From a bacterium (GTDB lineage: Bacteria > Patescibacteriota > Saccharimonadia > Saccharimonadales > UBA4665), in assembly GCA_021851735.1 (NCBI GenBank), contig JAJZCD010000001.1, positions 1 to 35,077 on the forward strand: 35,077 bases of DNA. The letters run 5' to 3'. Every line of letters begins with the position of its first letter. Position 1 is the first letter of the stretch. This document shows positions 14,061 to 16,778 of this stretch, piece after piece. A model generated the notes under the pieces. That model searched no databases and was not told the DNA's origin. It worked only from the letters and a program-made list of their open reading frames with translations. The position numbers and the translations under genes are program-made.

Positions 14061-14513
14061 ATGAAGAAAGTTGTCATTGGGCTTGGCGTTGTCGGCGTGT
14101 TCGCAGTATATAGCCTAGGTATCCGCCATCAGAACCCAGTTATCAGCAAGCCATCGTCTTTGGCGAGTTCGTCCAGTTCTTCGGGCACAAAGTCTGCTAG
14201 CTCAAGTGCCGGTAGCTCTCCATCGGGTTCCAAAAAATACAAAGACGGTACGTATACTGGTAGTGCTGTTAATGTCTACTACGGTAATGTGCAAGTCTCA
14301 GCGACTGTCTCAAATGGGAAGATCACTGATGTTAAGTTCTTGCAGTACCCCTACACGCACGCAACGTCAGTATATATCAATAAGCAAGTTATGCCGTACC
14401 TGAAGCAAGAAGCTATCAAGGCGCAGAATGCCAATGTACAGATTATCAGTGGCGCTACGTATACCTCAGAAGGCTTTAGGCAATCATTGCAGTCAGCGCT
14501 AGCAAAGGCGTAA
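14061..14513 (+). CDS. Membrane-anchored FMN-binding domain (FMN_bind) protein
   Basis: N-terminal TM, Ser-rich linker, 'YKDGTYTGSAVNVYYGNVQVSATVSNGKITDVKFLQYP' and 'QIISGATYTSEGFRQSLQSAL' with the SGATYTS flavinylation motif. Confidence 0.9.
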   Translation: MKKVVIGLGVVGVFAVYSLGIRHQNPVISKPSSLASSSSSSGTKSASSSAGSSPSGSKKYKDGTYTGSAVNVYYGNVQVSATVSNGKITDVKFLQYPYTHATSVYINKQVMPYLKQEAIKAQNANVQIISGATYTSEGFRQSLQSALAKA

Positions 14514-14521
14514 TTCCCGTA

Positions 14522-15265
14522 ATGCGTGCGACCGAGCTTATTATGGGTATGCCAATCACCGTTGAGATTTGCGACCATGGGGCTAGTGACCATATGAAGC
14601 AGGTTTTTGATTATTTCCGCACCGTTGACGAGCGATATAGTCCATATAAAGAGACCAGTGAATTATCCGCTATCAACAATGGGCTACCCAAAAAAGAATG
14701 GTCTGAAGAGATGCGGGCAGTCCTGGGTATGTGTGAAGAGACTGAGCAACAAACAGATGGTTTTTTCAATATTAGACATCGTGGCAAACTCGACCCGTCT
14801 GGCCTTGTAAAAGGTTGGGCGATTCAGCAGGCAGCTGATCAGTTGTGCTCTAAGGGGTATAAGAACTTTTATATTGAGGCGGGTGGAGATATCCAAGTGT
14901 ACGGTAATTCTCTGGATAACGAAGGTTGGCGCGTCGGTATCCGTAATCCGTTTAACACGCAAGAAGTGGTTAAGGTGATACAGCTGAGCGATTATGCTGT
15001 TGCAACGTCGGGTACATATATCCGTGGTGAGCATATTTACAATCCACATAATAATAACCGCCCCGCTCAAGAGGCTCAGAGCTTAACAGTTATCGGACCG
15101 ACCATCTATGATGCCGACCGGTTTGCTACGGCGGCTTTCGCCATGGGGAAACAAGGCATGGCGTTTATCGACCAACTGCCCGGTTTTGAAGCGTACATGA
15201 TTACTGATCAACAGACGGCAATACTAACGAAAGGATTTGAAAAATATGTGGTTGAAGCTCATTAA
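14522..15265 (+). CDS. apbE: ApbE-family FAD:protein FMN transferase
   Basis: 'IMGMPITVEI', 'VDERYSPYKETSELSAIN', 'GKLDPSGLVKGWAIQQAAD', 'IEAGGDIQVYG', 'VATSGTYIRG', 'ADRFATAAFAMG'. Confidence 0.92.
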   Translation: MRATELIMGMPITVEICDHGASDHMKQVFDYFRTVDERYSPYKETSELSAINNGLPKKEWSEEMRAVLGMCEETEQQTDGFFNIRHRGKLDPSGLVKGWAIQQAADQLCSKGYKNFYIEAGGDIQVYGNSLDNEGWRVGIRNPFNTQEVVKVIQLSDYAVATSGTYIRGEHIYNPHNNNRPAQEAQSLTVIGPTIYDADRFATAAFAMGKQGMAFIDQLPGFEAYMITDQQTAILTKGFEKYVVEAH

Positions 15266-16778
15266 GCCCATTGATAAACTCATTGATGGCATATCGATGT
15301 ACCGGTTACTGCTCTATTACCTGCTTGGGCTTTTAGCGGCTGCTATCGTATTCAGTAGTATTGGTGTCATGAATTATAACGGTTTTGAAATTGGCATATC
15401 TGCCGGTGTTTTGGTGGGCGCTTGCTGGGTTATCAATAAAATATTTGCCTCTATTTTTAATGCGCCAACTAATCCCGAGTCGTCAATTCTAACGGGACTT
15501 ATCTTGGCGCTCGTTATCCCGCCGACATTTAACAACTTCGGGTTTTTGTTTATGTTAGCTGCATCTGGTCTCGCGATTGCCTCGAAGTACATTCTGACCA
15601 TTCGCTACAAACATATTTTCAACCCAGCGGCGATTGCTATCGTGCTTACAGCATTAGGCCCGCGACAAAGCGCCAGCTGGTGGGTGGGTACAGCAGCTAT
15701 GTTGCCGCTTGTAATCATAGGTGGCATCCTTGTTATGCGGAAAATTAGGCGAGAGTCCATGGTTATCATGTTCCTCGTAACTACCACGGCTGCTACGGCA
15801 TTATTCGCTACGATTGGTGGCGCGAGCGCACTGACGAGCTTACGTGAAATGGCACTAACCTCTTCGGCGTTTTTCTTGGGTTTCGTGATGCTTACTGAAC
15901 CGTACACGTCGCCAACAACGCTCACTAAGCAGCTATGGTATGCTGCAATTGTCGGTGTACTATTGACGCCGCAAACACATATCGGACATTACTATACGTC
16001 ACCGGAAGTCGCCCTGATCATTGGCAACTTGTTCGCCTACGTAGTTAGTTCTAAAACCAAGTTATTCCCTATTTTGCGTGAGAAGATTGAGATTGCAGCC
16101 AACACGTTTGAATTCCGATTCATGAGTCAGCAAAAATTGGCGTACGAGCCTGGTCAGTATATGGAGTGGACCTTGCCGCATGACAATACGGATGATCGGG
16201 GTGCGCGACGGTGGTTCACCTTAGCTTCGTCGCCGACTGAAAATTCCATAAAGATAGGTGTTAAGTTCTATGATAAGGGCAGTAGCTATAAGGATGCTAT
16301 GCTTACAATGGATCAGAATACGCCTATTGTAGCCAGCCAACTGGCAGGCGATTTCGTTATGCCAAAAGATACTGCGGAAAAGCTCGTATTCATCGCGGGT
16401 GGTATTGGCGTGACGCCGTTTCGGAGTATGATCAAATATTTAATCGATATGAACCAAGAACGGTCGGTCCGTATGTTGTATAGTGCCCGATCACACGAGG
16501 GTTTTGCGTATAAAGACGTGTTTGAAGAGGCACGAAGAAAACTTGGCATTAATACCATGTACGTTACTTCACGCAATAGCACTACAAAAGCTATGCCCCA
16601 CACTATCCCTGGTCCTATTACCGGCAAGCTCATCACTCGAGTAATCCCAGACTATGCCGATTGTATGTTCTATATATCTGGTACTCGACCTATGGTTGAA
16701 GATATACAAGAAGCGTTGGAACAGCTGCACGTACCGCTACATCGTATTAAGGTTGATTTCTTCCAGGGCTATGCGTAG
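15246..16778 (+). CDS. Fused NqrB/RnfD-like membrane domain and ferredoxin-reductase-type FAD/NAD(P)-binding domain
   Basis: N-half multi-TM with 'NPESSILTGLILALVIPP' and 'KHIFNPAAIAIVL' (NqrB/RnfD-like). C-half 'YEPGQYMEWTLP', 'RRWFTLASSP', 'FIAGGIGVTPFRSMI', 'YISGTRPMVEDI', 'DFFQGYA' (FNR fold). The track starts at TTG 15237; ATG is at 15246. Confidence 0.88.
   Translation: MWLKLIKPIDKLIDGISMYRLLLYYLLGLLAAAIVFSSIGVMNYNGFEIGISAGVLVGACWVINKIFASIFNAPTNPESSILTGLILALVIPPTFNNFGFLFMLAASGLAIASKYILTIRYKHIFNPAAIAIVLTALGPRQSASWWVGTAAMLPLVIIGGILVMRKIRRESMVIMFLVTTTAATALFATIGGASALTSLREMALTSSAFFLGFVMLTEPYTSPTTLTKQLWYAAIVGVLLTPQTHIGHYYTSPEVALIIGNLFAYVVSSKTKLFPILREKIEIAANTFEFRFMSQQKLAYEPGQYMEWTLPHDNTDDRGARRWFTLASSPTENSIKIGVKFYDKGSSYKDAMLTMDQNTPIVASQLAGDFVMPKDTAEKLVFIAGGIGVTPFRSMIKYLIDMNQERSVRMLYSARSHEGFAYKDVFEEARRKLGINTMYVTSRNSTTKAMPHTIPGPITGKLITRVIPDYADCMFYISGTRPMVEDIQEALEQLHVPLHRIKVDFFQGYA

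Follow-up and report, generated by a model that had tools for sequence, protein, structure and literature searches.

A three-gene FMN_bind, ApbE and fused membrane-reductase module, a probable flavin-based trans-membrane electron-transfer system, in a Saccharibacteria genome

Introduction

Three closely packed genes in a Saccharibacteria genome raise the question of whether electrons from cytosolic NAD(P)H could be passed across the membrane of such a bacterium to a flavoprotein on its outer face, and at which side of the membrane that flavoprotein would receive its flavin. The genes lie on a stretch of DNA of 35 077 nucleotides, which was analysed as a whole and is referred to below as the window. 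A first-pass annotation, made from the letters of the window, had read them as a minimal flavin-based electron-transfer module in an organism expected to be fermentative and host-dependent. Here this reading is examined by domain searches, predicted structures and comparison with related genomes.

Results

Three packed genes form a recurrent unit

All three genes were found on the forward strand at window positions 14061–16778, the coordinates given by the first-pass annotation, and the 8 nt gap followed by an overlap that it had described was borne out. The FMN_bind gene (14061..14513, 150 aa) scored 44.7 bits with PF04205 (E=2.1e-11) and is separated by 8 nt from the ApbE gene (14522..15265, 247 aa), which encodes a predicted FAD:protein FMN transferase of a short form without a signal peptide and scored 148.1 bits with PF02424 (E=4.5e-43). 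The third gene (15246..16778, 510 aa) encodes a fusion of two parts, an NqrB/RnfD-like membrane domain (PF03116, 43.5 bits) and an FAD/NAD(P) reductase domain (PF00175, 51.6 bits). All four scores exceed the curated Pfam cut-offs (22, 25.6, 27.7 and 22 bits, respectively). The likeliest start of the fusion gene is the ATG at 15246, which is preceded by AAGGA at 15231–15235 and gives an overlap of 20 nt with apbE; a TTG at 15237 would be an alternative, longer start and is less likely. Just downstream of the module, and convergent to it, is an IS200-type Y1 transposase gene (PF01797; 16916–17344, reverse strand).

A comparison of neighbourhoods, proposed in the first-pass annotation as a check, showed that the order FMN_bind, ApbE, fusion is kept in most of ∼30 related loci while the flanks vary, and that it is also retained in Ktedonobacteria and other CPR. 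Full-length homologues of the fusion, 50–66% identical, were present in many genomes. An order repeated amid different flanks is not due to chance and, together with the domain scores, the homologues and a confident model of the fusion, led to the rejection of chance or misannotation as an explanation of the three genes. The constant order amid changing flanks fits a self-contained unit.

The fusion lacks the FMN-bearing loop of NqrB and RnfD

The AlphaFold model of the fusion was confident (mean pLDDT 89.7, pTM 0.84), with helices in the membrane domain, and with the full-length homologues it upheld the claim that a single polypeptide carries both domains. The NqrB/RnfD-like membrane domain (15246..16055, approximately residues 1–270) contains most of the PF03116 match (residues 151–272, E=3.3e-11) and gave profile matches to NqrB (7xk3_B, E=0.00078) and RnfD (8ahx_D, E=0.00087). 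The predicted cytosolic FAD/NAD(P) reductase domain (16068..16775, approximately residues 275–510) contains the PF00175 match (residues 385–491, E=1.7e-13) and the motifs RRWFT (16206–16220) and GGIGVTP (16398–16418). The FAD-binding family PF00970 matched the fusion below its cut-off only; the whole reductase region was covered by the predicted structure and by PDB searches, in which its profile matches were to NqrF and flavohaemoproteins. Among the first 50 Foldseek matches listed for the fusion only reductase domains of NqrF or flavohaemoprotein type appeared, and the probable identity of the membrane domain is drawn from sequence profiles. No [Fe-S] domain was found in the fusion by Pfam search.

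The segment that follows FNPA in NqrB and RnfD bears covalent FMN. At this place the fusion has an FNPAA...WW stretch (15618..15683, residues 125–146) from which the longer FMN-bearing loop is missing: the distance from FNPA to the next aligned helix is ∼22 residues, against ∼70 in NqrB and more in RnfD. The gap between FNPA and WWxG was 16 residues in 47 of the 49 fusions in which it was measurable, and an SGATxT-like match occurred in one fusion of 62. Judged by alignment, the covalent FMN site of NqrB and RnfD is absent from the membrane domain, and the loss of the FMN-bearing segment is more in keeping with one outward electron route than with a pump of the Nqr/Rnf kind. For NQR/RNF-like membrane subunits, loss of the flavinylation site is described in the passages of PMC11334425 that deal with these systems. 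One homologue of the fusion, otherwise 60% identical (L010, G052:C28), is interrupted by one internal TAA and may be a pseudogene or an assembly error.

The FMN_bind protein and its flavinylation motif

The FMN_bind protein comprises a hydrophobic anchor at approximately residues 3–21 (19-residue Kyte-Doolittle value, KD19, 2.04), a Ser-rich linker and an FMN_bind domain at residues 73–147; the PF04205 match and the N-terminal hydrophobic segment agree with its earlier description as a membrane-anchored protein. The domain carries QIISGATYT, which includes the S/T-G-A-S/T acceptor motif as SGAT (14448..14459), with Thr133 (14457–14459) as the presumed acceptor. One correction concerns the flavinylation motif, noted as SGATYTS in the first-pass annotation: in the published motif D-x-x-S/T-G-A-T (PMC12052999) an Asp precedes the acceptor Thr by six residues, and in the window protein this position is Gln. 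The Asp is replaced by Gln, Asn or Ser in most Saccharibacteria loci and retained in both Ktedonobacteria loci and in several other CPR loci. Exchange of Asp for Ala in one tested flavinylation target had minor effects only (PMC12052999), so that Gln at this position is no strong argument against flavinylation.

An N-terminal hydrophobic segment was detected in 40 of 42 FMN_bind proteins at a looser 15-residue Kyte-Doolittle setting, and the flanking charges do not decide which way the Saccharibacteria anchor is oriented. The FMN_bind proteins of actinobacterial relatives begin with lipobox-type signals, e.g. LLTAAC and LAGC, as read by eye from six-frame translations. An extracytosolic position of the window protein would be favoured only by these signals in distant relatives.

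ApbE carries no export signal

The ApbE of the window was confirmed as such by its PF02424 match, its fold and its conserved residues. The AlphaFold model (pLDDT 92.5) matched FmnB best (7esb/7esa, TM-score ∼0.87) and other ApbE structures as well, and although the protein is ∼40 residues shorter than longer ApbEs it keeps D91, K97, GGD 121–123, H171, D199 and T203, which are invariant or nearly so. Fold and conserved residues identify it as a predicted FMN transferase.

None of 47 module ApbEs had an N-terminal hydrophobic segment in a 19-residue Kyte-Doolittle test, and two of the 47 passed at the looser 15-residue setting. Nor is there a signal peptide at the start of the genome's two further ApbEs, and a secreted ApbE encoded elsewhere that would load FMN_bind from outside was accordingly rejected. 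Tat export of a folded, flavinylated FMN_bind was rejected because TatC went undetected both here and in near-complete genomes with the module, G007 and G019 among them. From Saccharibacteria and Ktedonobacteria to Actinobacteria, FMN_bind proteins that are exported or anchored have a signal-less ApbE as partner; in Actinobacteria this is so although FMN_bind has a lipobox signal.

A signal-less ApbE fits poorly with ordinary extracytosolic flavinylation. Since ApbE has no export signal and TatC is undetected, attachment of FMN may take place in the cytosol, ahead of translocation of the FMN_bind domain. A motif of seven residues is enough for recognition by ApbE (PMC12052999), so flavinylation of a chain that has yet to be exported is conceivable. 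We regard it as a tentative suggestion, somewhat doubtful on present evidence, that a cytosolic ApbE loads FMN onto SGAT ahead of Tat-free translocation and that a flavin-carrying chain then crosses the membrane.

The same observations bear on an arrangement in which FMN_bind faces the cytosol, where ApbE, the reductase domain and FMN_bind would all act on that side of the membrane, with the membrane domain as an anchor, a quinone site or an ion path. Signal-less ApbEs throughout the modules and at the other two genes, the ambiguous positive-inside pattern and the undetected TatC would all suit it, and a cytosolic ApbE with a cytosolic target is known from Klebsiella (PMC12052999). It is nevertheless unlikely: the actinobacterial lipobox signal peptides stand beside signal-less ApbEs, a Ser-rich linker together with a short basic N-terminus is typical of an N-in anchor, and the complex model presented in PMC11334425 for NQR/RNF-like systems has FMN_bind on the extracytosolic side.

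Two similar clusters in this genome (G000:C8:83949-86753, equivalent to L158:5950-8754, and G000:C53:3343-5967, L159) each encode a signal-less ApbE together with a ferric-reductase-like membrane protein (PF01794) and a reductase of the FNR type that has a hydrophobic segment at its C terminus; neither has an FMN_bind domain in its vicinity.

Respiration and flavin supply in the genome

The genome (G000), in which the window forms bases 1–35077 of contig C8, is of 1.13 Mb and 97.7% complete, and statements on its content are based on family searches. No PF02508 protein (RnfA/E, NqrD/E) was detected, while control genomes were positive, and on this absence a complete Rnf/Nqr complex encoded at another site was rejected. 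On one contig (C42, L160) genes for COX1, COX2, a UbiA-family (CyoE-like) protein, an FAD-linked oxidase and a Pyr_redox_2 (NDH-2-like) protein were found together. The organism, which had been expected to be fermentative, is therefore not simply so, as a heme-copper oxidase and an NDH-2-like enzyme are encoded. Aerobic chains of this kind were described earlier in Saccharibacteria (PMC6031116).

COX1 was found in 83 of 119 relatives, and the fusion was present in ∼45 of these 83 and in 7 of the 36 COX1-negative genomes, an association confounded by relatedness. Five near-complete genomes (G037, G074, G088, G101 and G106) have the fusion and no COX1 match, and strict coupling of the module to a terminal oxidase was rejected. 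These data also bear on the proposal, made in 2018 for the fused NqrB/NqrF of a Saccharibacterium (PMC6031116), of an energy-coupled NADH dehydrogenase; the fusion would then feed a quinone and the heme-copper oxidase and move Na+ or H+. Such a role would accord with the COX1/COX2 and NDH-2-like genes and with the greater frequency of the fusion among COX1-positive genomes, confounded as that is, but the PF02508 subunits are missing, the fusion has no [Fe-S] domain in the Pfam search and the five genomes named above have the fusion with COX1 unmatched. We consider it quite improbable for the window module.

Neither RibF domain family, flavokinase or FAD synthetase (PF01687, PF06574), was found in the genome, though it is rich in predicted flavoproteins. 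FAD for ApbE would therefore come from outside the cell or from an enzyme missed by the models.

Distribution and a second module

The fusion was complete or nearly so in about 50 of 119 related genomes, a count that takes in three partial or interrupted cases (G020, G030 and G052). With a fusion in close to half of the sampled relatives, the module is a regular part of Saccharibacteria metabolism and no oddity. In a phylum-wide sample FMN_bind was present in 47 of 380 genomes. Close relatives beyond Saccharibacteria occur in Ktedonospora, Dictyobacter, an Anaerolineaceae MAG and other CPR lineages, and a second, more distant form of the module has an ApbE of ∼295 aa and an FMN_bind 23–27% identical to that of the window.

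The same genome harbours a second module on contig C18 (L003:6353-9176), which consists of FMN_bind and a 54% identical fusion; next comes a gene, overlapping that of the fusion, for a DUF347 membrane protein. The second module has no ApbE of its own. In a FastTree phylogeny of 64 fusions, the deep nodes of which are weakly supported, the two copies of this genome fall in separate clades, and the C18 fusion groups with that of L053, from another genus (support 0.99). A recent duplication of the two modules was rejected, as the copies lie in different parts of the tree.

Regulators and candidate acceptors

Nine of the ∼30 loci have, upstream of FMN_bind, a gene pair for a histidine kinase and a response regulator of OmpR type; in one of the nine, two genes intervene. 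These regulators share 48–85% identity with each other and 27–39% with other regulators in the set. The pair is absent from the window, and the loci that have it are scattered over the fusion tree, which fits an old association that was lost from the window. The oxygen-response and host-interaction roles suggested in the first-pass annotation were not supported as stated.

No acceptor gene recurred beside the module across the ∼30 loci, and a recurrent neighbouring acceptor was rejected. Single cases were a cupredoxin gene two genes downstream of the fusion (L084:6790-7227) and DsbA-like and VKOR genes after the fusion gene (L085:5560-6743), each a possible hint of an acceptor. A ferric or other metal reductase serving iron assimilation has some encouragement from a VIT1 ferrous iron transporter gene in six published clusters, as given in the NQR/RNF-like passages of PMC8238504. 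However, an iron transporter does not recur beside the Saccharibacteria modules in the ∼30 loci and the pair that does recur upstream is the OmpR-type regulator with its kinase; such a function is very improbable.

Discussion

A proposed route for electrons

We conclude, with a probability of about 0.72, that the module belongs to the ‘NQR/RNF-like’ systems of flavin-based trans-membrane electron transfer and conducts electrons from NAD(P)H to FMN_bind at the outer face. Cytosolic NAD(P)H would be oxidised, by way of FAD, at the reductase domain of the fusion, and the electrons would cross through its NqrB/RnfD-like membrane domain, where a non-covalent flavin is probably bound. They would then pass to FMN on Thr133 of the anchored FMN_bind, presumably attached by the neighbouring ApbE, and from there to an extracytosolic acceptor. 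The same architecture and mechanism are put forward for ‘NQR/RNF-like’ clusters in the corresponding passages of PMC8238504 and PMC11334425. The anatomy and the direction given in the first-pass annotation agree with domain content, predicted fold and published proposal, but the export of FMN_bind and the place where it is flavinylated are inferred, as are flavin occupancy, acceptor and activity. The cited literature yielded no biochemical test of an NQR/RNF-like member.

If the module works in this manner, very small and probably host-dependent bacteria would gain a means, besides fermentation and a quinol oxidase, of disposing of reducing power. That an anchored FMN_bind has a signal-less ApbE beside it also raises a testable question, that of covalent FMN attachment before membrane crossing.

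Comparison with known systems

With Gram-positive extracellular electron transfer (PplA/FmnB of Listeria) the module shares an ApbE-type transferase and, as its topology is predicted here, an FMN_bind domain outside the membrane. The electron-entry protein differs, however; the window FMN_bind is a single short domain that reaches 32.8 bits where the PplA cut-off is 325, and FmnB acts outside the cytosol whereas the window ApbE is signal-less. With Na+-NQR and Rnf it has in common homologues of NqrB/RnfD, the FMN_bind subunit NqrC/RnfG and the NqrF reductase domain, but the module is without NqrD/E or RnfA/E (PF02508) and the covalent-FMN loop, and its reductase is fused to the membrane domain.

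In ‘T. rhizospherense’, a Saccharibacterium with NDH-2 and a bo3 oxidase (Starr 2018, PMC6031116), a membrane protein likewise has NqrB-like and NqrF-like domains on one polypeptide. Compared by description only, it differs in having an FeS domain, which the window fusion lacks, and FMN_bind and ApbE are not mentioned in that report.

The system type itself has already been described (2021, 2024), CPR included; the NQR/RNF-like sections of Méheust 2021 (eLife, PMC8238504) and Huang 2024 (mSystems, PMC11334425) report it mainly in Actinobacteria and CPR. The short, signal-less ApbE of the window and the Gln in place of the motif Asp are discussed in neither of these sections. The published filter looks for a signal peptide or a site of lipidation in either FMN_bind or ApbE; by the hydrophobicity test, the window FMN_bind has an N-terminal hydrophobic anchor and the ApbE has none. 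Set against these published accounts the module shows no qualitative difference, and it shares with them a single polypeptide, with PF03116 in its N-terminal and PF00175 in its C-terminal part, clustered with FMN_bind and ApbE, and a membrane subunit without the NqrB/RnfD flavinylation site.
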